Part shown: one piece after another, positions 2,661 to 30,297 of the stretch | How positions within the stretch are numbered: the first letter of the stretch is position 1 | How the letters are laid out: every line of letters begins with the position of its first letter | From: Terriglobus sp. RCC_193 | GTDB lineage: Bacteria; Acidobacteriota; Terriglobia; Terriglobales; Acidobacteriaceae | NCBI RefSeq assembly: GCF_041355105.1 | Contig: NZ_JBFUPK010000001.1 | Span: forward strand, 682,001 to 746,000 | Direction of reading: 5' to 3' | Length of the DNA: 64,000 bases | Made by a program: the position numbers and the translations under genes | The notes under the pieces: generated by a model | What the model was told of the DNA's origin: nothing | Seen by the model: only the letters and a program-made list of their open reading frames with translations | The model's database searches: none

Positions 2661-2677
2661 TTGGTCTTCTGCTTGCT
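2661..2677 (+). promoter_or_regulatory. sigma54-type (-24/-12) promoter upstream of flgB
   Basis: TTGG (2661-2664), nine bases, then TGCT (2674-2677) fits the -24/-12 pattern (GG-N10-GC). The expected start site at about 2688 leaves a 35-base leader holding the flgB Shine-Dalgarno. The same TTGG-N9-TGC[A/T] word occurs before fliL and flgF. Confidence 0.65.
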
Positions 2678-2722
2678 TCATCGTCAGTAAGTCGTTCTGA
2701 CTTGAGCGAAGGGAAGATTTTG

Positions 2723-3073
2723 ATGCTTGAGATGCCGACAGCGGATGCACTGGAGCGTTATCTAACGCTTGCGACACAGCAGATGAAGCTGACCGCGGAG
2801 AATATGGCCAATGTAGACACTCCTGGCTACCGCACGCAGGGCCTGGACTTTCAGGGTGAGTTTGGGAAGGCGCTGGATGCGCACAGTGTTGTTGGTGATC
2901 CGACGGTAAGTGATGTTGGTGGACTGACATCGCGGCCGGATGGCAATAATGTCTCACTCGATCGGGAATCGACGCTGATGGCGCAGACACAATTGCAATT
3001 TCGAACCGGTGTGGAACTGCTTCGGCATCAGTACTCGCAAATGATGGAAGCGATCAAGTCAGATGGTAAGTGA
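2723..3073 (+). CDS. flgB: flagellar basal-body rod protein FlgB
   Basis: FlgB is a proximal-rod subunit in the periplasm, at the rod/MS-ring junction. The 116-residue product has the conserved N-terminal ENMANVDTPGYR motif of rod and hook proteins, and a C-terminal helix (LLRHQYSQMMEAIK) expected to pack with the N-terminal helix. I chose ATG 2723 because AGGGAAG lies just upstream; a TTG at 2702 would add seven residues before it. It is the first gene of the flagellar block, followed after 10 bases by flgC, and lies under the sigma54-type element at 2661-2677. The length is slightly below the usual 120-140 residues. Confidence 0.95.
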   Translation: MLEMPTADALERYLTLATQQMKLTAENMANVDTPGYRTQGLDFQGEFGKALDAHSVVGDPTVSDVGGLTSRPDGNNVSLDRESTLMAQTQLQFRTGVELLRHQYSQMMEAIKSDGK

Positions 3074-3083
3074 GCCTAACTAA

Positions 3084-3530
3084 ATGAATCTTTTTGGAAT
3101 GATGCAGGTGACGAGTTCGGCCCTGACGGCACAGCGCGTGCGGGCCGACGTGGTGGCTGCAAATATGGCGAATGCCGAGACCACGCGAACCGAAGATGGA
3201 GTTCCGTATCAGCGGCAGAGTGTTGTGTTGCAGAGCGTGGGAGAAAACCCATTTGCTTCCGCGATGAAAAATTTTGGTGTGAACGATGCGAGTACGCCGG
3301 AAGGTGGTGTGAAAGTAGCAGAGATACTTAAGAGCGAGGCGCCGGCATTGCGACGTTATGAGCCTTCGCACCCGGATGCAGATGCAGATGGTTATGTCTC
3401 TTTTCCGGATATTAATCCAGTGACGGAGATGGTGGATCTGATGGGCGCCAGTCGCTCGTATGGCTTGAATGCAAGTGCTTTGCAGGCCGAAAAAGGCATG
3501 TTGAGCGCTTCGATTGACTTACTGAAGTAA
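3084..3530 (+). CDS. flgC: flagellar basal-body rod protein FlgC
   Basis: FlgC is the second proximal-rod subunit. The 148-residue protein has the rod signature near the N terminus (VVAANMANAETTRTEDG) and the C-terminal PDINPVTEMVDLM segment typical of FlgC, where NP followed by EMVDLM/EM is diagnostic. Length is normal for the family. It follows flgB by 10 bases and is followed by fliE after about 19, the order seen in many flgBC-fliEFGHIJ operons. Confidence 0.95.
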   Translation: MNLFGMMQVTSSALTAQRVRADVVAANMANAETTRTEDGVPYQRQSVVLQSVGENPFASAMKNFGVNDASTPEGGVKVAEILKSEAPALRRYEPSHPDADADGYVSFPDINPVTEMVDLMGASRSYGLNASALQAEKGMLSASIDLLK

Positions 3531-3549
3531 ACGGAAGGAAAAGAAAAAG

Positions 3550-3870
3550 ATGTTGCCGATTCAAAATCCCACATTGCTTCGTGAAGCTCTTTTGCAGAGC
3601 AGGATTCCGGTGGCTGCGGGGCCAAACTCTGCGGAGAGCGTTTCGTCTTCAAATGTCTTCGGAAATATGGTGCAGGCGACACAGGAGCAGATTCGCGCTA
3701 CCGATACGAAGGCACAGCAGGCGGTGACGGGATTGTTGAGTGGTCAGGGTGTGGATGTACACGAGGCCATGATCGCAACGCAGCAGGCGGACCTGACCTT
3801 TGAACTTGCGCTACAGGTGCGTAACAAAGCCGTGGCTGCTTACCAGCAGATGATGCAGATGCAGTTTTAA
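3550..3870 (+). CDS. fliE: flagellar hook-basal body complex protein FliE
   Basis: FliE links the MS ring to the proximal rod. The 106-residue protein carries the family's C-terminal block (SGQGVDVHEAMIATQQADLTF followed by LQVRNKAVAAYQQMMQMQ), rich in long amphipathic helix. It begins with ATG at 3550 after the purine-rich AAGGAAAAG. Its position between flgC and fliF is the conventional one. Confidence 0.95.
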   Translation: MLPIQNPTLLREALLQSRIPVAAGPNSAESVSSSNVFGNMVQATQEQIRATDTKAQQAVTGLLSGQGVDVHEAMIATQQADLTFELALQVRNKAVAAYQQMMQMQF

Positions 3871-3888
3871 CGCGACGGACGAGGAACG

Positions 3889-5571
3889 ATGGCAGCGACG
3901 ATGGAACCAGGAACGGCGATGAGTCGCAGCAACGCGATGCTGGCGACGTTCCGTGAACGATGGAGTGCCATGGAGCCTGCCCGCAGGCATCTGTTGGTGG
4001 GAAGTGTCGCAGCGTTGCTGGTCCTGTCCGGTATTTCCGTGTGGTGGAGTACGCGTACCGATTGGCGCGTCCTGTTCAGCGGGATGGATGGCAGAGATGC
4101 TGCGACCATGCAACAGCAATTGAGCGCGGCAGGGATTCGCTATCAGATCACGCCGGATGGAACGGCGCTGCAGGTTCCGGTGGAGCAACTGGACAAGGCT
4201 CGCGTTGCGATTTCGTCGTCGGGGCTGCCGCAATCCGGGCGCATGGGGTTTGAGCTTTTTGATAAGCCGAACTGGGTCGGAAGCGAGTTCGATGAAAAGG
4301 TGAATTATCAGCGTGCGCTGGAAGGAGAGTTGGAGCACACGATTGGAACATTGCAATCGGTGCGTTCAGCGCGGGTGCATGTGGTGTTGCCGAAGCAGGG
4401 TGCGTTTGCGTCGGAAGATCAGCCTGCAAAGGCTTCGGCTGTGCTGAAGTTGCGGCGATCGAATCTGCCACGGGAGCAGAGTGATGCGATTCGTAATCTG
4501 ATTGCAGGTTCGATTGAGGGTTTAAAGCCGGAAGCCGTGACGCTGGTGGACGCGGACGGACACATGGACTTCGCTGCAAATGCTGCGTCCGCCAATGATC
4601 GCGAAGAAGAGATTGCGCTGCAGAACAAGTTGACGCAGGTGCTGGAGCCGATGGCGGGTGCAGGCAATGTTCATGCGACGGTTTCGATCAGCTATGTGCA
4701 GGGATCGGAAGAACACACCGATGAGGTTTATGATCCGCAACTCTCTGCTCCGCTAAGTATGCAGCGGACGGAGCAGCTTGCGCAGGCATCGCGACCCGGT
4801 GGTGTTGCCGGCACGGGAAGCAACACACCCGCAGCGCAACCAACGGCGCAAAATGCTCCACTCAACGGTACGACCGCGGCGGTTGCTGCAGGACCATCCC
4901 CATCGACTGCAACGTCTGGTCAGACACAGAACTCGCATGAAGAGAGTACGCAGTATGCCGTGACACGACACGTGAGCCATACTGCCGAGTCACCTGGACG
5001 TATACGACGTATTACTGCTGCGGTTGTGGTGAATGACCGCGAGATTCGACAGATGAGTGGGAAAGAACTGCACACAGCATGGCAGCATCGCACCGCGGAG
5101 GAGATGAAGCAACTGCAGCAATTGGCGCAGGCAGCCGTGGGATATGACGAGAGACGGGGAGACTCCGTGGTGCTGGAGAATCTGGCATTTTCCGGGAATA
5201 ACGACGATGCCCAGGTGTCGGGCTGGTCACGATTTACAACGTCGACGACGGAGCTGTTGCGAACACAGCCTACGCTGCCACGAGCATTGGCAACATTGGC
5301 AGGTATTGTGCTGTTGGGGATGTTGGTACTCCGACCGTTGACGAAACAGACACAAAGCCTGTTACGGGCGCCTATGCCGGAACGTCCAATGTTGGCGGCA
5401 GCTTCGGCGGAAGAGGCGATTGCGAATGAAGCCGTGTTAGGAAGAAGCGGCGCCCACATGAACACCCAGCATATCTTTGATCGTGTGACGGAACAGATCA
5501 AGGCAGAGCCGAAAAGCAACACGAGATTAATCGGTTCCTGGATCAGGGCTGGTAGCGAGGAGTTGGACTAA
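3889..5571 (+). CDS. fliF: flagellar MS-ring protein FliF
   Basis: FliF forms the inner-membrane MS ring on which the export gate, rod and switch are built. The 560-residue protein has a first membrane segment at about residues 35-55 (LLVGSVAALLVLSGISVWW), periplasmic ring-building domains (the LFSGMDGRDAATMQQQL and FDKPNWVGSEFDEKVNYQRALEGEL regions), a low-complexity Ala/Thr/Pro/Gln linker at roughly 295-350, a second membrane segment near 460-480 (ATLAGIVLLGMLVL), and a cytoplasmic tail for FliG binding. Its stop is immediately followed by the fliG ATG with no spacer, which suggests coupled synthesis of these partners. Confidence 0.97.
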   Translation: MAATMEPGTAMSRSNAMLATFRERWSAMEPARRHLLVGSVAALLVLSGISVWWSTRTDWRVLFSGMDGRDAATMQQQLSAAGIRYQITPDGTALQVPVEQLDKARVAISSSGLPQSGRMGFELFDKPNWVGSEFDEKVNYQRALEGELEHTIGTLQSVRSARVHVVLPKQGAFASEDQPAKASAVLKLRRSNLPREQSDAIRNLIAGSIEGLKPEAVTLVDADGHMDFAANAASANDREEEIALQNKLTQVLEPMAGAGNVHATVSISYVQGSEEHTDEVYDPQLSAPLSMQRTEQLAQASRPGGVAGTGSNTPAAQPTAQNAPLNGTTAAVAAGPSPSTATSGQTQNSHEESTQYAVTRHVSHTAESPGRIRRITAAVVVNDREIRQMSGKELHTAWQHRTAEEMKQLQQLAQAAVGYDERRGDSVVLENLAFSGNNDDAQVSGWSRFTTSTTELLRTQPTLPRALATLAGIVLLGMLVLRPLTKQTQSLLRAPMPERPMLAAASAEEAIANEAVLGRSGAHMNTQHIFDRVTEQIKAEPKSNTRLIGSWIRAGSEELD

Positions 5572-12175: not shown

Positions 12176-12742
12176 ATGTCCAACGCAGCAACTGTTGATA
12201 CAACAACCACAGAAATCGTTACTCCAACCCCATCGAAGGTGGGACTTGGAGTGATCCTGATTCCGGTGCTCCTGTCCACGGTGTTAACCCTGGGTGTTGT
12301 GGGCGGCGGGGGCTTCTATCTGATTCGCTCGGGCAAGCTTGGGGCCATAGCTCAGGCTGCGCCTACTCAATCGGCCGTTGCCCCCATCATCGTGGTTGCG
12401 CCACCTGCATCGCACGTTCTTGCGTTGGAGCCGATGATCGTTAATCTTTCCGACGCAGGTGGCCATGCGTATTTACGTGCATCGGTAAGTTTGAGGATTA
12501 AGGACGAAGAGAAGGCTGAGAAGAAAGAAGAGAAGAAGGATCCGAAGGCAATCGATACCGTTTCTACTGAATTAAGAGATACGACGCTGGCAATACTTAG
12601 TCGGCAAACTTCTGACGAATTACTGCTTCCAGACGGCAGGGAAACGTTGAAGAAGGCGTTAGAGCATGAATACAAGCAACGCAATATTGAGATACCGGTT
12701 CTTGAGGTCTACTTTACGGATTTTCTGGTGCAGCGAGGATGA
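12176..12742 (+). CDS. fliL: flagellar basal-body-associated protein FliL
   Basis: FliL is a single-pass inner-membrane protein around the stator. The 188-residue product has a membrane segment at about residues 20-45 (VILIPVLLSTVLTLGVVGGG), then a periplasmic FliL domain (LALEPMIVNLSDAGGHAYLRA, a Lys/Glu-rich insert, LPDGRETLKKALEHEY, VLEVYFTDFLVQ). The C-terminal FTDFLVQ is characteristic. No Shine-Dalgarno precedes ATG 12176; an ATG at 12131 is an alternative that would add 15 residues and lie upstream of the sigma54-type element. The stop overlaps the next gene. Confidence 0.9.
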   Translation: MSNAATVDTTTTEIVTPTPSKVGLGVILIPVLLSTVLTLGVVGGGGFYLIRSGKLGAIAQAAPTQSAVAPIIVVAPPASHVLALEPMIVNLSDAGGHAYLRASVSLRIKDEEKAEKKEEKKDPKAIDTVSTELRDTTLAILSRQTSDELLLPDGRETLKKALEHEYKQRNIEIPVLEVYFTDFLVQRG

Positions 12743-13041
12743 ACGACTTTGAAAATACGGCTGCGCAGCAGTCGGCTGAGAAGACCGTGGAGCTTGCCGT
12801 ATCGGGCGGCTCGTTGATCCGAGGACAGGTACGTAACATTCCGTTTCGGTTGTCGGTGACGATTCCATTGCTTGGTTGGAGATTGCTCGGTTTGCGAGAC
12901 CTGCGGCAGGGGCAGTTGCTTCTCACTGGTGTCTCGGCCGCGGAGGATGTTCCGGTCAGTGTTGGTGATGCCTTACTGGGGCATGCCGAACTGGATAACG
13001 TTGATGGACAGATGGCTGTTCGACTCACGCGTCTGGACTGA
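12739..13041 (+). CDS. small SpoA-domain protein, FliN-like, between fliL and fliO
   Basis: A 100-residue protein whose C-terminal ~70 residues fit the SpoA/FliN C-terminal fold (LSVTIPLLGWRLLGLRDLRQGQLLLTGVS, then PVSVGDALLGHAELDNVDGQMAVRLTRL in pieces). It lies where fliM and fliN stand in the common fliLMNOPQR order, yet a clear fliM-fliN pair is present 6.4 kb downstream. It may be an extra switch/C-ring component or a SpoA protein serving the export sorting platform, or a diverged relic of the ancestral operon. It overlaps fliL by ATGA, which argues that it is expressed. Confidence 0.7.
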   Translation: MNDFENTAAQQSAEKTVELAVSGGSLIRGQVRNIPFRLSVTIPLLGWRLLGLRDLRQGQLLLTGVSAAEDVPVSVGDALLGHAELDNVDGQMAVRLTRLD

Positions 13042-16430: not shown

Positions 16431-18547
16431 GTGAGATGGTTCAAAGCAAGCGCTTCGGCATGTTGGTTCATGCGAAGCCACTCCTTCTACCTGCTGCCGC
16501 AATGTGTGCCATCTTTGTGATGCTGGTACCGCTGCCAGCGGTCTTGCTGGATCTGCTTCTGGCTGTGTCAATTACAGCATCGCTCCTTGTCTTCCTGACT
16601 GCGGTACAGGTTAGGAAAGCTACCGATCTGTCTGTATTTCCAACGTTATTGCTATTGCTGACGCTGTTCCGGCTTTCGCTGAATCTGGCATCGAGTCGTC
16701 GCATTCTGCTGCATGGAAGTGAAGGCACCTCTGCCGCTGGCGATGTGATCCAGGCCTTTGGGCAGTTTGTTGTGGGTGGCAATTATGTCGTGGGATTCGT
16801 GCTGTTTCTCGCGTTGATTGCGATTCAGTTTCTGGTTGTGTCGCATGGTGCGGTGCGTACGGCAGAGGTGACGGCGCGCTTCACTCTGGATGCGTTGCCC
16901 GGTAAACAGATGGCCATTGATGCGGACATGAATGCTGGCCTGATTGATGAACAGACTGCCAGAAAGCGCCGGGAAAACATTGCGCGAGAGGCGGAGTTTT
17001 ACGGCGCCATGGATGGAGCCGCCAGATTCAATCAACGCGATGCCATGGCAACGATTTTAATTACCGCCATCAACATCATTGCCGGACTGCTGATTGGTGT
17101 ATTGCAGCAAGGTGTGGATCTACTGACCGCAGTCAAAACGTACACGATCCTGACAGTTGGGGATGGTCTGGTAACCCTGATCCCGAGTCTGTTGGTGTCG
17201 ATGGCCGGTGGCCTGGTGCTGACCCGCGCTTCCAGTTCGGGAACGCTTGATCAAGAGATCAACACGCAGCTCTTCTCGCAGAGGAATGTTTTGTTTCTTA
17301 CTGCCGGTGTGTTGACTGCGATGGCCTTGATCCCAGGAATTCCGAAGATCCCATTTCTGCTGGTAGCTCTAGGTGTCTTCTTTTTTGGCCGCGCACTGCC
17401 TGCAGAGAGTTTGAAGGTGGCTGAGGATGCGGTTGCAGGAGCAACAGGCAATTCTGTTGCGGGTGCACCAGCAATAGAGGACCTCACGGGCCTTCTGAAG
17501 GTTGATGAATTAACTCTCGAAATCGGATTTCAACTCATTCCAATGGTGGATGAAAAACAAAATGGCCAGATGCTCAACCGTGTGCGAGCACTGCGTCGAC
17601 ATCTCGCCACGGAGCTTGGGTTCATTGTTCCTCCAGTTCATATTACGGACAATCTTCGACTTCGTCCGCGAGAGTATGTTGTGCAGCTTCGCGGCAATGA
17701 GATTGGACGATGGCAGACGGAAGGCAATTGCATGCTTGCCGTGAACAGCGACCCCAAGGCACGCGTGATACCGGGAATGGAGACACGCGAGCCCGCTTTT
17801 GGTGTGCCTGCCCGATGGATTGATCCGGGATTAGAAGAGCAAGCTTTGGCCGCTGGATATTCCGTGGTGGATCAGACCGCGGTCATTGGAACGCATTTGG
17901 CGGAGTTGATCCGCCGGAATGCGTATGAGTTGCTGGGGCGTGCGGAGACAAAGCGTTTGCTGGATTCGGTGAACGAGAGTTATCCGAAGTTGATGGAAGA
18001 GTTGCTGCCCAAGTTGATGACGCTGGGCGAGATTCAAAAGGTGTTGCAGCAGTTGTTGCGTGAACAAGTGAGCATTCGCAACCTGGGAACAATTCTGGAA
18101 ACTATCGTGGAGTACGCTCCGCAATCGAAAGATGTGGTTTTCCTAACGGAGCAGATACGGCAGGTGTTGGCGCGGAATATTGTGCGCCCTCTTCTGGATG
18201 CTGAAGGCGGTTTGAATGTACTGACCCTGGAACGCTCACTGGAAGAGCAGATCATACGGACCTTTGATCCAGAGGGCGCTGTGCGGCTACTGGGTGGCAA
18301 TACACGCAGCGCTCCGTTGAGTACCAACTTTCTTCGTCCGTTGCTGGACTCTGTGAAACGCCTAACAGGCGATGCCACACCAATGGCAATTCCCGTGCTT
18401 CTTTGTCCTTCGCCGGCACGCTATCACCTGCGGCGTTGGCTGGAACCGTTTCTGCCCAAAGTAACTGTACTTTCACCGGGCGAGATTCCTCCAGAGGTGC
18501 GCGTGCGCAGTCTGGGGACGGTAGGACAGCAGTTGGCAGGTGGTTAA
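16427..18547 (+). CDS. flhA: flagellar export protein FlhA
   Basis: FlhA forms the nonameric ring of the export apparatus and uses the proton motive force. The 706-residue product has eight membrane segments in the first ~320 residues, the FHIPEP signature region (FLTAVQVRKATDLSVFPTLLL area, DALPGKQMAIDADMNAGLID, ARKRRENIAREAEFYGAMDGA), then a cytoplasmic ring domain of about 350 residues. Length is normal. In many bacteria flhF and flhG follow; here fliA follows directly. Confidence 0.97.
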   Translation: MSEMVQSKRFGMLVHAKPLLLPAAAMCAIFVMLVPLPAVLLDLLLAVSITASLLVFLTAVQVRKATDLSVFPTLLLLLTLFRLSLNLASSRRILLHGSEGTSAAGDVIQAFGQFVVGGNYVVGFVLFLALIAIQFLVVSHGAVRTAEVTARFTLDALPGKQMAIDADMNAGLIDEQTARKRRENIAREAEFYGAMDGAARFNQRDAMATILITAINIIAGLLIGVLQQGVDLLTAVKTYTILTVGDGLVTLIPSLLVSMAGGLVLTRASSSGTLDQEINTQLFSQRNVLFLTAGVLTAMALIPGIPKIPFLLVALGVFFFGRALPAESLKVAEDAVAGATGNSVAGAPAIEDLTGLLKVDELTLEIGFQLIPMVDEKQNGQMLNRVRALRRHLATELGFIVPPVHITDNLRLRPREYVVQLRGNEIGRWQTEGNCMLAVNSDPKARVIPGMETREPAFGVPARWIDPGLEEQALAAGYSVVDQTAVIGTHLAELIRRNAYELLGRAETKRLLDSVNESYPKLMEELLPKLMTLGEIQKVLQQLLREQVSIRNLGTILETIVEYAPQSKDVVFLTEQIRQVLARNIVRPLLDAEGGLNVLTLERSLEEQIIRTFDPEGAVRLLGGNTRSAPLSTNFLRPLLDSVKRLTGDATPMAIPVLLCPSPARYHLRRWLEPFLPKVTVLSPGEIPPEVRVRSLGTVGQQLAGG

Positions 18548-18581
18548 CGTGGCTACGAGACGCAGCCGTACGACAGGAGAA

Positions 18582-19472
18582 ATGTACATGGAGCAGCCTG
18601 GACATTCAGAGGAACGAAGCATAGGCGACATTCCTGGTGGTGTATTGTTTGGTGGAAATGCGGGATCATTTGCCGGGGTGGATGCCTATGGATCCATAGG
18701 CATCGAACCACTGCGAATGCATCAGGCTGTGCGAGACCAGTTGCTGGTGGAGCACCTTTCCACGGTTCGATTTGTTGCGCGACGGATCCATGAGCGCCTG
18801 CCGCAGCATGTGGATATCGACGATCTGGTCTCAGCAGGCATTGTCGGATTGATGGATGCCTTTGCCAAGTTTGACCACGCCAAACAAGTCCAATTCAAAA
18901 GCTATGCGCAGTTTCGTATACGCGGCGCCATTCTGGATTCGTTACGCACGCTGGATTGGAGTCCGCGCGAGCTTCGCAGAAAAGGGCGTGCGGTGGAAGA
19001 TGCGGTTCGCACACTTACACAGCGCCTGGGGCGCTCTCCTGTCGAAACAGAAGTCGCGGATGAGATGGCGATGTCGCTTCAGGAGTATCAGCAACTGCTT
19101 GGTGAATTGAAGGGGCTGGAGATTGGCAGTCTTAACCTGGAGCGCAATGAAGACGGCGGTGACGACGAGTTATCGTATCTTCCGGGTTCGGAGAGTGATG
19201 AGCCGCTCTTTCGCTGCCTGAAAGGTGAGTTGCGTCAGCGGTTGGTGGATGCAATCGAGGGGCTTCCGGAGAAGGAGCGCATGGTGGTGTCTCTCTACTA
19301 TCATGAAGAACTTACGATGAAAGAAATTGGTGTTGTTCTGGGGGTTGTGGAATCGCGCGTATCGCAGATTCATACCTCGGCCGTGGTAAAGCTTCGTGCT
19401 GCGCTGACCGACCTTGGCGCTGAGAAGGCCGCTGCACGCAGTCGCAGAAAGAGCGTGGCACATGGCCGCTGA
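18582..19472 (+). CDS. fliA: flagellar sigma factor FliA (sigma28/WhiG family)
   Basis: FliA directs RNA polymerase to late flagellar promoters and is held inactive by FlgM. Regions 1.2-2 (VRFVARRIHERLPQHVDIDDL, SAGIVGLMDAFAKFD, QFKSYAQFRIRGAILDSLR) and region 4 (ELTMKEIGVVLGVVESRVSQIH) are intact in the 296-residue product. The start is probably ATG 18582, with CAGGAGA just upstream; an in-frame ATG six bases later is equally possible. The N terminus is about 45 residues longer than usual and Gly-rich. A fitting promoter exists before flgM at 26001-26027. It overlaps fliM by 11 bases. Confidence 0.95.
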   Translation: MYMEQPGHSEERSIGDIPGGVLFGGNAGSFAGVDAYGSIGIEPLRMHQAVRDQLLVEHLSTVRFVARRIHERLPQHVDIDDLVSAGIVGLMDAFAKFDHAKQVQFKSYAQFRIRGAILDSLRTLDWSPRELRRKGRAVEDAVRTLTQRLGRSPVETEVADEMAMSLQEYQQLLGELKGLEIGSLNLERNEDGGDDELSYLPGSESDEPLFRCLKGELRQRLVDAIEGLPEKERMVVSLYYHEELTMKEIGVVLGVVESRVSQIHTSAVVKLRAALTDLGAEKAAARSRRKSVAHGR

Positions 19473-20376
19473 CTCCGCTCCTGCAACCGACGCGGCAGCG
19501 TTTAACTTCAGTCGTGCAGGGCTGGTGGCCAATGATCAGTTGCGCACACTGCGCACGCTGGACGAACAGTTTGCACGCAATCTGACACACACGCTTGGAG
19601 CGTGGTTGCGAACTACCATCACCATTGCACCTCAGCCGGCCTCGCAGGTGACTTTCAGCCAATTCATGGAGCAGACGTCCGCAGGATGTTTTGTGCTTCC
19701 GCTTCGCATGGATCCGATGCATGTACGCGCCGCGCTGTCGCTGGATATTCAACTGGCCCCGGCGATTATTGATCTTTTATTGGGTGGAAGTGGAAAGACG
19801 ACTCGCATCGATCGTGAACTCACGGAGATTGAAGAAGCGGTCCTCGGGTCGGTTCTGGATATCGTGCTTCGGGAATGGACAAGCGCCTGGACGGCCATGG
19901 GGGTGGAGTTTCTTGGCGAACGGCGCGAACGGGACAGTCATGGACAACGATTGATGCCGCTGCAGGAGAAAGTCCTGTTTGTGCGGTTTGCAATCACGCT
20001 GGCGGATGTTACAGGCGACCTGCTGTTCTGCCTTCCGTCGTCGGCAGTGACTTCGACGATGAAAGCCATGTCGCATCGTCAAGATCGACAACGGATGCGA
20101 ACGACAGAAGAGCGAGCTCGCATGGAATTACGCATAGGAAATGCGAAGCTGCGGATGGCGCTTCTTCTACCCGCAATGCGTCTCTATGCGCAGGATCTTC
20201 GGACACTGAAACCGGGTGTCACGCTTGGCCTGCCGTTACAGAGCGGAGCTACTGCGGAATTGAGGGTAGGTAACGTAACGGTCTATCGCGCGCGCCCGGT
20301 ACGTTACGGAGAACAGCGTGGCGCCCAGTTGATGCAGTTGGTAGAAACGCTCAGAACGGAGGCGGGAACCGAATGA
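19462..20376 (+). CDS. fliM: flagellar motor switch protein FliM lacking the CheY-binding peptide
   Basis: FliM is the middle C-ring protein. The 304-residue product aligns with FliM from the FNFSRAGL... QLRTLRTLDEQFARNL segment (matching the YDFRRPDR... region), through the CheC-like middle domain (LLLGGSGKTTRIDRELTEIE) to a SpoA domain at the C terminus. The ~35-residue N-terminal arm with the L-S-Q-x-E-I-D-A-L-L motif that binds phospho-CheY is absent: the protein starts only about 16 residues before FNFSR. No in-frame start upstream restores the motif; that DNA encodes the FliA C terminus in another frame. Overlaps fliN by ATGA. Confidence 0.93.
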   Translation: MAADSAPATDAAAFNFSRAGLVANDQLRTLRTLDEQFARNLTHTLGAWLRTTITIAPQPASQVTFSQFMEQTSAGCFVLPLRMDPMHVRAALSLDIQLAPAIIDLLLGGSGKTTRIDRELTEIEEAVLGSVLDIVLREWTSAWTAMGVEFLGERRERDSHGQRLMPLQEKVLFVRFAITLADVTGDLLFCLPSSAVTSTMKAMSHRQDRQRMRTTEERARMELRIGNAKLRMALLLPAMRLYAQDLRTLKPGVTLGLPLQSGATAELRVGNVTVYRARPVRYGEQRGAQLMQLVETLRTEAGTE

Positions 20377-20717
20377 ACGAAATGTATGGAGCAGGTGAAC
20401 CGGCTATGGAGCAGGAGATTGAACAGCCTTCCGTGGAATCACTCCTTACCGGGGATAGAGATGCCTTCCTGGATATTGAGGTGGAAGCACGCATTCATCT
20501 TGGAAGTCGTGAGATGCTGCTCTCCGAAGTGCTGGAGTTAAACCCAGGCGATGTTCTGGAGTTGGATCGTCTTGTATCTGACCCAGTCGACCTCCTTGTT
20601 GGAGACCGAATCGTTGCACGTGGCGAAGTCGTAATAGTGGGTGGCAATTTTGCACTGCAGGTGACAGAGGTTGCTGTGCCTCGCCTGCGACTGGAGAGTG
20701 TCAGATGTCTTCATTAA
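20373..20717 (+). CDS. fliN: flagellar motor switch protein FliN
   Basis: FliN forms the bottom of the C ring. The 114-residue protein has an acidic N terminus and a complete SpoA domain (IEVEARIHLGSREMLLSEVL, LNPGDVLELDRLVSDPVDLL, GDRIVARGEVVIVGGNFALQV). Length and order after fliM are typical. The next gene starts inside its last five codons. Confidence 0.95.
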   Translation: MNEMYGAGEPAMEQEIEQPSVESLLTGDRDAFLDIEVEARIHLGSREMLLSEVLELNPGDVLELDRLVSDPVDLLVGDRIVARGEVVIVGGNFALQVTEVAVPRLRLESVRCLH

Positions 20718-21643
20718 TGCATGGCAGAGGAGCACAGGTACTTTCTGTCCCGACGACTTCTTTGGAGTCACCAGATGCTGCCTTGAAGGTTCGTGAATTG
20801 GTTGCTGGCGCATGCCTTTGCGGTTCACGCCTTCCGCTGCAGGTGCGCTTCGGTCTGAGAAGTCGCACGCGTCCTGTTGTAGAAGGCCGCTGGTGCTGCA
20901 GCGAACAGTGTTTGCGGGCGCGTGTGGCGTCATTTGTGCGTCGAGGCTTACCGAAGCACTCATTGCGGCAAGAACATCAGCACCGTGTTCCGTTGGGACT
21001 TCTGTTGTTGTCGCAGAGCGCTATTACGCAGGAACAACTACGATTTGCGCGTGACCATGCGGAATACACCGGCGAACGTATCGGGACAGTTCTTGTTCAA
21101 CATTGCGGACTCTCAGAACAACGGCTGGTGCAAGGGCTTGCGGCCCAATGGGGTTGCACCGCCTGGGATATCAAGGGAAGTATTCCGGATGGCATGGCGT
21201 GTATCGCTCCGTATGCCGTATTGCGAGCGGCAGAGATGCTGCCTCTGCGTATGCATGCCGATGGAACGATCAGCGTAGCGTTTGCGGCTGCACCGGATGC
21301 ACAGGCCGTGTTCGCCGTACGCAGGATTCATGATCGGCCGGTGGATGCGGGCATTGCTGCTGTAAGTGACTTTGCTTCCGCGGTGGATCACATCAAGAGG
21401 CAGGCCGCAGTTCCGGTGGTGGAGCTTTACTGTGAAGACGAAGCGGATCTGGTGCGGATACTCACGCGGACGATTCAGCGCCAGGCGCCTGTCGAAAGCC
21501 GGTGGGCCCGCGTGCGTGACATGGTGTGGGTTCGCATGTGGCTGGAGCTATCGGCGCTTGCCGGAGGCTTGCAGCAAACGGAAGATGTGATGGATTTTAT
21601 CTTTCATCTTCCCGGCGGGAATGCGGATGCTGCGAAGCGTTAA
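20705..21643 (+). CDS. MshEN-like (possible c-di-GMP-binding) protein in the switch operon
   Basis: A 312-residue protein of unknown role. Residues 37-69 hold C37-x-C39 and C64-C65-x3-C69, a possible zinc site. Residues ~96-148 look like an MshEN (GspE/PilB N-terminal) domain: R125-I-G127, L130, G135-L136, L141, L145, Q148 fit the 24-residue MshEN motif, and a weaker copy lies exactly 29 residues earlier (L97-G98, L101, I107, L112). Tandem spacing of 29 matches the known MshEN arrangement, which binds c-di-GMP; the first copy lacks the arginine and glutamine, so binding is uncertain. No ATPase motif follows, unlike GspE/PilB. It starts within fliN, so it is co-expressed with the switch, suggesting a link between second messenger and motor. 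That role is inference. Confidence 0.65.
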   Translation: MSSLMHGRGAQVLSVPTTSLESPDAALKVRELVAGACLCGSRLPLQVRFGLRSRTRPVVEGRWCCSEQCLRARVASFVRRGLPKHSLRQEHQHRVPLGLLLLSQSAITQEQLRFARDHAEYTGERIGTVLVQHCGLSEQRLVQGLAAQWGCTAWDIKGSIPDGMACIAPYAVLRAAEMLPLRMHADGTISVAFAAAPDAQAVFAVRRIHDRPVDAGIAAVSDFASAVDHIKRQAAVPVVELYCEDEADLVRILTRTIQRQAPVESRWARVRDMVWVRMWLELSALAGGLQQTEDVMDFIFHLPGGNADAAKR

Positions 21644-21669: not shown

Positions 21670-21686
21670 TTGGATGCGTGCGTGCA
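21670..21686 (+). promoter_or_regulatory. sigma54-type (-24/-12) promoter upstream of flgF
   Basis: TTGG (21670-21673), nine bases, TGCA (21683-21686) in the 55-base gap before flgF. The expected start site at about 21697 is next to the ATG at 21699, so the Shine-Dalgarno GTGGAG (21691-21696) might not be transcribed from it. Confidence 0.45.
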
Positions 21687-21698
21687 TTGTCGTGGAGT

Positions 21699-22451
21699 AT
21701 GGATAGCGGACTCTATGCGGCGTACACCGGACTGCTTGCACGAACGCAGGCCCTGGAAACTGCTGCTAATAATCTTGCGAATGCCAATACCAATGGGTTT
21801 CGCGCGCAGCAGGACTATTTCCGTGGTGTGTTGGCGGCTTATAGCCCTGAGGCAAAGAGCGATGGCTTAAGCAGCGCGGTGAATCAGTATTCCATGCTGG
21901 CAGGAAGCCGACTCAACCTGGCGCAGGGACAACTAACGACAACGGGAAACCCTCTGGATGTCGCGTTGAATGGCGATGGTTTTTTTCAGATCAAGACGGC
22001 GCATGGCACTCAGTTGACAAGGGACGGAGCGTTTCTGCGCGCGAGTGATGGAACGCTGACGACGCAGCAGGGGGAGCCTGTTCTGGATGCTGCTGGTGCA
22101 CCGATTGTGTTACCCACGGGTGCGGTCCACATCGGCAGTGGTGGAGATATCTCCGTCAGCACGGCGGATGGCGTCAGCTCCATTGCCGGAAGTCTGGGGA
22201 TCGTGAACTACAGTGCGGACGATCTGGCGGCAGTGGGTGGGAATCGTTTCACGGTGCGCGATGGTGCGAAAGCAACGGCTTCTAGTGCAGAGGTGCGTGA
22301 GGGGCAGCTTGAAGGTGCGAACGAGGATGCCGTGCAAGGAACGATGCAACTCATGTTGATCCAACGGCAGGCAGAGATGATGCAGAAGGCATTGAACGTC
22401 TTCCATAACGAGTTTGATAAGACCGCGGCTGAAGAGCTGGGTAAGGTTTAG
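21699..22451 (+). CDS. flgF: flagellar rod protein FlgF
   Basis: FlgF is a proximal-rod subunit. The 250-residue product begins MDSGLYAAYTGLLARTQALE, followed by the rod signature AANNLANANTNGFR, and ends with a matching C-terminal helix region (MQLMLIQRQAEMMQKAL). The start MDSG is the conventional FlgF start and has GTGGAG immediately upstream. It is followed by flgG after 23 bases. Confidence 0.93.
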   Translation: MDSGLYAAYTGLLARTQALETAANNLANANTNGFRAQQDYFRGVLAAYSPEAKSDGLSSAVNQYSMLAGSRLNLAQGQLTTTGNPLDVALNGDGFFQIKTAHGTQLTRDGAFLRASDGTLTTQQGEPVLDAAGAPIVLPTGAVHIGSGGDISVSTADGVSSIAGSLGIVNYSADDLAAVGGNRFTVRDGAKATASSAEVREGQLEGANEDAVQGTMQLMLIQRQAEMMQKALNVFHNEFDKTAAEELGKV

Positions 22452-26048: not shown

Positions 26049-26351
26049 ATGGCGCAGATGAATGGGATCGGAAGCAATGCACTGACGAACGGAGTGGTTG
26101 ACCGGACGGACCGCACGCCACAAACGGATAAACCGTCCAGGTCAACCGCTGTGGATGCTACGAAAACACAGGCATCGCAGGATGTGGCCAGTTTCAGCGG
26201 CGCAGGCAGTGTGTTGGCTGTGGCATCTGCCAATACCGACGATGTACGTACGGATCGCGTGGCATCTCTGAAAGCGGCGGTCGATTCCGGCAACTATAAC
26301 GTTCCTGCCGATGCTGTGGCGGATAAGCTCTTGAGTTCAATGTTGGAATAG
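26049..26351 (+). CDS. flgM: anti-sigma28 factor FlgM
   Basis: FlgM binds FliA and is exported once the hook is finished, releasing late gene expression. The 100-residue protein has a disordered, Thr/Asp-rich N-terminal half and the FlgM C-terminal helix pair (VRTDRVASLKAAVDSGNY, VPADAVADKLLSSML). It lies directly after a sigma28 promoter, which gives the usual feedback loop. The gap to the next gene is two bases. Confidence 0.93.
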   Translation: MAQMNGIGSNALTNGVVDRTDRTPQTDKPSRSTAVDATKTQASQDVASFSGAGSVLAVASANTDDVRTDRVASLKAAVDSGNYNVPADAVADKLLSSMLE

Positions 26352-29099: not shown

Positions 29100-30297
29100 G
29101 GTGCGTTCCTTGAGCCGTAGAGAGTTGCTCCAGGGTGCAGTGGCCTCTGCCGCTATGGTTGCGGTGACTGGATGCGGCCCAAAGAGGACGACTGGCTCCA
29201 GGTATGGATTGCCAGGAGTGGACGTGAGCGGGGCTCACTCTTTGAAGGCACACGCGATGGATGCGCGTATGCTCTTTGGTTTCGCGGTGAATACGCAGAA
29301 GCTGCGCGATGATACGGCCTATCGCGCTCTTATAGAACAGCAGTGCAGCATCATCGTCGCGGAGAATGCGATGAAATGGCGTGCGCTACGCCCGGCTATC
29401 GACCAATTTTCCTTTGCAGATGCGGATGCACTGGTGGAATTTGCTGCCCGGCGTCACATCCGTCTGCGCGGCCATAACCTTTGTTGGCATGAGGCGCTGC
29501 CGGAGTGGTTCTCGAAACAGGTGACGCAGGTGAATGCGCGCCAGTTGCTGCGGGACCATATCCGCACCGTTGCCGGTCGTTATGCCGGGCGGATGCATTC
29601 CTGGGATGTTGTGAACGAGGCGATCGAGGTGAAGGATGGCCGTCCAGATGGTCTTCGCAACACTCCCTGGCTGCAACTCATCGGCACGGATTACATCGAA
29701 ATGGCGTTTCGTGTGGCGCGAGACGCCGATCCGTCGGCGTTGTTGACCTATAACGAGTACGGGATTGAGCAGGAAACGCAGGAAGCCGCCAGGAAGCGGG
29801 CGGCGGTGTTGCTGATGCTGCGGCGGTTGAAGCAACGAAATGTGCCGTTGGACGCCGTTGGTATTCAGTCCCATTTGCAGGCGCAACCCTTGTATGGCTA
29901 TGGGGCTGGTTTGCAGCGGTTTGTGCAGGATTGCCGTGAGATGGGGCTGGAAGTCTTTATTACGGAACTGGATGTGAACGACCGGACGCTGCCTGCCGAT
30001 GTTGCAACGCGGGATATTGGCGTGGCCAATCGCTATCGCAGCTATCTGGATCTGCTGCTGCCGGAAAGAAATGTGACTGCTGTGCTGACATGGGGCGTTT
30101 CAGACGCGGGGACATGGCTCAACAACGGCAAGGACCGGGCGAGGGAAGACGGTTTACCCCAACGACCTCTGCTGTTTGACGGTCACCTGAAGGCGAAACC
30201 GGCATTTGCGGCAGTACGGGACGCTTTTGACACCCGGCGACCGACGGGTGCCTTGCAGGGTACTCCGCCGTCGCAGAAACCATTGCCAAAACTGTAG
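29092..30297 (+). CDS. secreted endo-1,4-beta-xylanase, glycoside hydrolase family 10
   Basis: GH10 enzymes cut internal beta-1,4 bonds of xylan with retention of configuration. The 401-residue protein has a twin-arginine-like N terminus (SRRELLQGAVASAAMVAV) ending in a lipobox-like VTGC, so it may be an exported lipoprotein. The TIM-barrel motifs are clear: NAMKW, RLRGHNLCWHEALPEWF, the acid/base glutamate in SWDVVNEAIE, and the nucleophile glutamate in VFITELDVNDR; TWGVSDAGTW near the end corresponds to the conserved WGxxD segment. It fits a plant-polymer-degrading soil bacterium. It begins inside the preceding small gene. Confidence 0.93.
   Translation: MPEVRSLSRRELLQGAVASAAMVAVTGCGPKRTTGSRYGLPGVDVSGAHSLKAHAMDARMLFGFAVNTQKLRDDTAYRALIEQQCSIIVAENAMKWRALRPAIDQFSFADADALVEFAARRHIRLRGHNLCWHEALPEWFSKQVTQVNARQLLRDHIRTVAGRYAGRMHSWDVVNEAIEVKDGRPDGLRNTPWLQLIGTDYIEMAFRVARDADPSALLTYNEYGIEQETQEAARKRAAVLLMLRRLKQRNVPLDAVGIQSHLQAQPLYGYGAGLQRFVQDCREMGLEVFITELDVNDRTLPADVATRDIGVANRYRSYLDLLLPERNVTAVLTWGVSDAGTWLNNGKDRAREDGLPQRPLLFDGHLKAKPAFAAVRDAFDTRRPTGALQGTPPSQKPLPKL

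Follow-up and report, generated by a model that had tools for sequence, protein, structure and literature searches.

Gene X and its place behind fliN

Gene X is a 312-aa open reading frame in the flagellar cluster of Terriglobus sp. RCC_193 (Acidobacteriota; Acidobacteriaceae), where it directly follows the C-ring gene fliN. It occupies 20705..21643 on the + strand of a 64,000-nt stretch of contig NZ_JBFUPK010000001.1 (assembly GCF_041355105.1, positions 682,001 to 746,000), which is the window referred to throughout. An earlier note, made from the sequence alone, had described an MshEN-like protein with a Cys cluster encoded in the C-ring operon and had suggested that it senses cyclic di-GMP (c-di-GMP); translation gave the same coordinates, strand, start and length as that note. 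The ATG also falls inside fliN, as it had stated: fliN (20373..20717, +; Pfam FliMN_C, 9.4e-24) ends with a stop codon at 20715-20717, so that the two genes overlap by 13 nt (20705..20717, +). A GGAG read from the sequence eight bases upstream of this ATG (20693..20696, +), within fliN, is a candidate ribosome-binding site. Upstream lie fliM (19462..20376, +; Pfam FliM, 3.3e-30) and a sigma factor gene (18540..19472, +; Pfam sigma70 r2, r3, and r4) that is termed fliA-like from its context, and an flgF-like gene (21678..22451, +; Pfam Flg_bb_rod and LlgE_F_G_D1) follows on the 3' side.

From the translation, the NCBIfam match, the orthologues, and a predicted model, the protein can be laid out as a four-Cys treble-clef-like finger, a complete MshEN domain, and a small C-terminal domain. 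MshEN motif I (aa 96-119; 20990..21061, +) is degenerate, with P96, S105, R116, and A119, and motif II (aa 125-148; 21077..21148, +) keeps R125, I126, G127, L141, L145, and Q148; the MshEN_C subdomain spans aa 149-233 (21149..21403, +). The 24 + 5 + 24 residue spacing of the motifs is that given for MshEN (PMC5013675). Two such motifs 29 residues apart, the first degenerate, had been pointed out beforehand, and the likeness exceeds chance: NCBIfam NF053729 ("c-di-GMP_motif") matched aa 96-148 with 39.2 bits (cut-off 38; E 4.4e-10), and a PDB sequence search with the window protein returned Thermus PilF at E 1.7e-11, with PilF, PilB, and MshE as relatives. Profile searches for MshEN were nevertheless divided, NF053729 passing its cut-off and Pfam MshEN (PF05157) giving no match to the window protein at E <= 1. 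Among orthologues, NF053729 matched all 56 searched at E <= 1e-3. The predicted model (mean predicted local distance difference test score (pLDDT) 84, predicted template modeling score (pTM) 0.80) has an MshEN_N four-helix subdomain and an MshEN_C subdomain that match c-di-GMP-bound MshE and PilF. By Pfam, the window protein has neither an ATPase domain (Walker) nor a PilZ domain, and it stops at 312 aa, in agreement with the earlier claims that no GspE/PilB ATPase is attached and that the fold is unlike that of YcgR.

The finger (aa 37-69; 20813..20911, +) reads C-x1-C-x25-C-x3-C in the window copy and C-x4-C-x(mostly 20-25)-C-x3-C in the family. Conservation was scored on 140 distinct orthologues of 160, after sequences with identical last 150 residues and one locus, L222, had been dropped; the set does not include G435, G458, G051, and some further loci. 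In 137 of the 140 the spacing was C-x4-C ... C-x3-C, and the conserved residues correspond to C37, C39, C65, and C69. The C-x-C/CC-x3-C cluster noticed earlier is therefore present (C37-x-C39 and C64C65-x3-C69), except that C64 is not a conserved member of it. In both predicted models the last two finger cysteines sit at the start of a helix (from residue 67) that follows a short hairpin; two Cys pairs, the second at a helix N-terminus, are the arrangement of a treble-clef or Cys4 zinc finger, and zinc would be the likely metal. No Pfam finger family was matched in the window protein. The C-terminal beta-alpha-beta-beta-beta domain (aa 236-301; 21410..21607, +) has a conserved W275 and R277 and gave only weak fold matches.

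The ligand site in the family and in the window copy

Ligand positions were mapped from the MshE contacts given in PMC5013675, and 12 were tested, with Arg, Lys, Leu, or Pro allowed at position 1. All 12 were kept in 127 of the 140 distinct orthologues: 98 of 102 in group A, 10 of 17 in group B, 1 of 2 relic sequences, and 18 of 19 sequences belonging to other classes of the phylum. At position 1 of motif I, every group A member (102/102) and 16/17 of group B have Pro, and 18/19 of the other classes have Arg, Lys, or Leu. PilF GSPII-C, whose second motif begins with Pro, is described as binding similarly to MshE, and Lys or Leu at that first position accompanies very tight binding (both PMC11731258). 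An Arg preceding the first motif contacts the ligand in MshE (PMC11731258); equated here with R94, it is kept in 101/102 of group A, 15/17 of group B, and 9/19 of the other classes. Because the 12 positions are kept in most orthologues, the family qualifies as a good candidate receptor and probably binds c-di-GMP. The homologues carried both motifs, and the lack of the second, which the earlier note had named as evidence against its proposal, was not seen.

The window copy is one of the 13 orthologues that fail the 12-position test. In its motif I, R116 stands at the L29 position, A119 at Q32, S105 at the turn glycine G18, and P96 at R9, and it is therefore itself a poor candidate for c-di-GMP sensing. 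The proposed c-di-GMP-sensing switch partner is thus plausible at the level of the family and doubtful for the very copy from which it was proposed. Loss of binding is not certain, because changes at Q32 of MshE cost at most fivefold in affinity (PMC5013675). A sister species (G435, locus L238) has an identical motif I, and the ratio of nonsynonymous to synonymous substitution rates (dN/dS) between the two was 0.096 for gene X, 0.076 for fliM, and 0.085 for flgF, values that are rough in such pairwise comparisons, where dS was mostly above 1. The two proteins differ at only 1 of 53 residues in the MshEN core, compared with 18 of 36 at the N-terminus; constraint is thus strongest in the altered core, an indication of docking. 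Since the sister shares the changes under purifying selection (dN/dS about 0.1), the window copy probably functions with weak or no c-di-GMP binding.

Distribution, synteny, and collapsed loci

Across 150 genomes of the window's family, a standalone gene X, separated from PilB by E-value (E <= 2.1e-9) and frame length, was found in 70 and FlhA in 69, with both in 66. Gene X occurred without FlhA in G051, G079 (76% complete, with a 3-kb contig that carries fliM-fliN-X), G086, and G101, and FlhA without gene X in G064, G084, and G087 (73% complete). In 59 of 61 fetched family loci fliN lies immediately upstream of gene X, and the same order was seen in 78 of 80 named GTDB loci, whose titles include Acidipila, Terracidiphilus, Paracidobacterium, and Acidobacteria metagenome-assembled genomes; the other two have no upstream sequence. 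The 13-nt overlap was predicted for 29 of the 61 family genes and for 69 of the 78 named loci with fliN, with orthologue starts picked by a rule that favors positions close to the stop codon of fliN. In other classes of the phylum gene X lay downstream of fliN in 18 of 20 fetched loci, mostly followed by flgF, at a distance of 120-2036 nt from fliN (16 measured loci). Among 396 genomes of the phylum, FlhA was found in 127 (36 in the window's family and 91 outside), and all of the 36 except G064 and G376 have gene X. The link to the C-ring operon seen in the window is therefore conserved across the family and beyond it. Genes at these loci were labeled by similarity to the window genes, and unlabeled genes in between may be missed.

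A FliN or C-ring partner is favored, at an even chance, because gene X overlaps and adjoins fliN and because the fliN-X pair persists where fliM lies elsewhere. The latter holds for G128, G095, and G047, whose FliM match is elsewhere in the genome. In G072, fliN-X is kept and FliG is present, FlhA is represented by a piece only, and no FliM was found. Three collapsed loci keep FliM-FliN-X: in L261 (G458) a truncated regulator precedes FliM; in L228 (G051; 2674-4068, +) a receiver and OmpR-type DNA-binding domain is joined in frame to FliM, with FliN and X following; and in L086 (G028; 3015-4094, +) an FlgC-like N-terminus is joined in frame to FliM, again with FliN and X behind it; this genome also holds a full flagellar locus (L078). 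Another locus, L053, keeps fliN-X without fliA or fliM. In the tree, gene X of L261 falls with its genus, those of L228 and L086 fall in group B, and the pair from genus g43 discussed below falls in group A. The dN/dS values for the L086 and L261 pairs are within the range of intact operons, and those for L228 are 0.25 for fliM and 0.37 for fliN, with gene X saturated; all such values combine the periods preceding and following the loss, with the possible exception of the g43 pair.

Some loci of related layout were also recorded. In L035, L037, and L065 the stretch from fliA to fliN yielded no FliM; these genomes have a FliM match elsewhere. The fliN-flgF slot holds no recognized gene X but an HDOD protein in L259 (4968-5912, +) and L262 (5790-6500, -), and a DUF6115 protein in L249. 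An X-like finger and MshEN protein lies outside the flagellar operon at L222 (4779-5630, -), beside genes that by appearance are putative secD/secF, in a genome with FlhA elsewhere.

EIDAL-type peptides of FliM bind CheY. With a strict pattern, which could overlook variants, one was found in 32 of 35 FliM frames of group A, 4 of 15 of group B, and 9 of 52 belonging to other parts of the phylum or to the test loci. The N-terminus of the window FliM has none, so the earlier description of a fliM without the CheY-binding peptide is right for the window and does not extend to a general rule, given the group A frames.

Elsewhere in the window, the head of the flagellar cluster carries genes for an OmpR-type regulator (295-1113, +) and a sigma-54 activator (1349-2602, +), both from Pfam, and between them an 80-aa HisKA-only fragment (1110-1352, +; below Pfam's cut-off) that overlaps both. 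An extra small FliMN_C (SpoA-type) protein of 100 aa, distinct from FliM and FliN, is encoded upstream of fliP (12739-13041, +). The cluster also holds FlgM (26049-26351), and beyond it lies a glycosyl hydrolase family 10 gene (29257-30297, +).

Proposed function and relation to known systems

The reading preferred here, with a probability of about 0.5, is that gene X encodes an accessory regulatory flagellar protein of the Acidobacteriota that acts next to FliN and was ancestrally a c-di-GMP receptor. In such a protein the four-helix MshEN subdomain would clamp c-di-GMP between the two motifs, and the resulting rearrangement of subdomains, presented alongside the Cys4 finger and C-terminal domain, would change how the protein touches FliN/FliM in the C-ring, thereby tuning motor output or C-ring assembly, a logic like that of YcgR in a different fold. 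In the window lineage the ligand site would have been remodeled by L29R- and Q32A-type changes and a shortened Cys knuckle, with docking most likely kept and c-di-GMP binding weak or absent. Ligand-free docking of this kind would be comparable to that of the MshEN-fold domains of PilB, which docks PilZ, and GspE, which docks GspL.

Several observations weigh against this reading. L29R is among the XpsE changes behind lost binding (PMC5013675), and all 12 positions are kept in only 10 of 17 group B members. The turn glycines, which lie outside the 12, are uneven: in the alignment used, G47 is Gly in 10/102 of group A, 13/17 of group B, and 18/19 of the other classes, and G18 in 94/102, 13/17, and 3/19, respectively. 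The Acidipila rosea orthologue scores 37.2 bits, slightly below the NF053729 cut-off of 38, and PF05157 matches just 29 of 56 orthologues at E <= 0.01. Outside the family, gene X was recognized by a family-based profile in at least 21 of the 91 genomes with FlhA (of these 21 matches, that in G348 was not fetched and that in G383 lies outside the flagellar operon). It is also dispensable for a flagellar locus, being absent from those of G064, G084, and G376 and from one of two in G480, although G141 and G045 have it in both of theirs. Finally, gene X survives in G458, G051, G086, and G101, in which no FlhA or FliG match was found, and in genus g43 (G101 and G043) it stands beside FliA with neither fliM nor fliN there, a pattern for which a role in the C-ring alone gives no explanation.

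The g43 loci (L224, 9893-14906, -; L226, 4027-8840, +) have shrunk to an OmpR-type regulator, a sigma-54 activator, a FliA-like sigma factor, and gene X, with no structural flagellar gene recognized beside them, and in G101 (88% complete) no FlhA, FliG, or FliM match was found. With the two gene X copies at a dN/dS of 0.18-0.26, this retention beside FliA without C-ring genes keeps a role at sigma-28 a live rival: gene X would be a c-di-GMP-gated regulator of FliA, with an MshEN sensor and a logic like that of Streptomyces RsiG-WhiG, and FliN a mere operon neighbor. The fliA-like gene found ahead of fliM-fliN-X in almost every intact locus with sufficient sequence agrees with this, as does the G064 locus, which lacks gene X and shows no fliA there either. 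We nevertheless consider it unlikely. The isolated FliA-X pair is confined to one genus, in which G043 also possesses a flagellar locus carrying a gene X of its own; L086, L228, and L261 keep FliM-FliN-X without an adjoining fliA, and L053 keeps fliN-X with neither fliA nor fliM at the locus (FliA was not searched for elsewhere in these genomes). G084, conversely, keeps fliA-fliM-fliN with no gene X after them, the window cluster already holds FlgM, and it is fliN, not fliA, that gene X overlaps and adjoins. Gene X has thus outlived the flagellum more than once, with FliN as its companion more frequently than FliA, and a C-ring partner is likely.

That the MshEN fold serves docking or assembly alone, as a C-ring or export adaptor in which c-di-GMP binding is nowhere the function, has in its favor the window lineage, where ligand positions are lost and the core is almost perfectly conserved, and the 7 of 17 group B members that fail the ligand test. 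Precedents are the motif-less MshEN-fold domain of Xanthomonas citri PilB, which docks PilZ, and the N-terminal domains of GspE/EpsE, which dock GspL/EpsL (PMC8389850). Retention of the 12 positions in nearly all of group A and of the other classes would be hard to explain without a ligand, and for the family as a whole we find this account improbable. The missing ATPase and the patchy occurrence outside the family might suggest a passenger, the remnant of a truncated PilB/GspE that the operon carries with it; the dN/dS of about 0.1, the conservation of Cys, Trp, and Arg positions between classes, the presence of intact copies in genomes lacking FlhA and FliG, and the added finger and C-terminal domain make it very improbable. 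Broader than the preferred reading is the tentative and rather doubtful proposal that gene X is the first member of a new class of flagellar c-di-GMP effectors, namely MshEN proteins with a finger and no ATPase. Such a protein would dock on FliN, link the C-ring to c-di-GMP, and act in addition on FliA or on the regulators at the head of the cluster, and in the window's genus it would have lost the ligand switch and work in a ligand-independent form. In that case gene X would outlive the flagellum in several lineages because of its action on FliA or the head regulators.

If a FliN-tied MshEN protein is indeed what gene X encodes, a second-messenger input would reach the rotor through another fold in the Acidobacteriota, which are abundant soil bacteria. 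A lineage without ligand positions yet under selection offers a natural test by which ligand sensing can be told apart from docking, and the collapsed loci reveal which genes outlast the flagellum and so bear on a C-ring as opposed to a sigma-28 role.

MshEN domains are known from pili, secretion ATPases, and glycosyltransferases, and to our knowledge the c-di-GMP effectors that act at the motor have PilZ or CheY-like folds. YcgR and MotI have the PilZ fold, and YcgR is about 240 aa long. The window genome has 15 GGDEF matches, a single PF05157 match in a 555-aa frame, and two PilZ matches in frames of 1524 and 123 aa, neither of them YcgR-sized. No flagellar-operon MshEN protein appeared among the literature matches listed, which covered titles and abstract openings and mostly lacked subscription journals. 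FleQ and FliI are named as further flagellar c-di-GMP targets (PMC5013675).

With the MshEN domains of MshE, PilB, and PilF (PMC5013675, PMC11731258) gene X shares the 53-residue tandem motif, the 5-residue spacer, the MshEN_N and MshEN_C fold, and, in most orthologues, the ligand positions. It differs in having no ATPase, in the Cys4 finger before and the beta-alpha-beta-beta-beta domain after the MshEN domain, in being encoded behind fliN, in the Pro that opens motif I in the window's family, and in the further ligand positions lost from the window copy. The proposed logic, a c-di-GMP effector at the flagellar motor, is that of the YcgR and MotI brakes (PMC12713396); YcgR, however, contacts MotA, FliG, and FliM, whereas gene X has no PilZ match and its probable contact, judged from synteny, is FliN. 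RsiG binds c-di-GMP by helix motifs and has no MshEN domain or Cys finger. Its likeness to gene X, as a c-di-GMP receptor acting on a sigma factor of the FliA family, applies only if FliA is the target; a FliA/WhiG-family sigma factor is encoded with gene X in the window and in most intact loci. The window copy as interpreted here resembles the N-terminal domain of X. citri PilB with its partner PilZ (PMC8389850), an MshEN fold without the c-di-GMP motif that serves in docking, in that case as part of a pilus ATPase.
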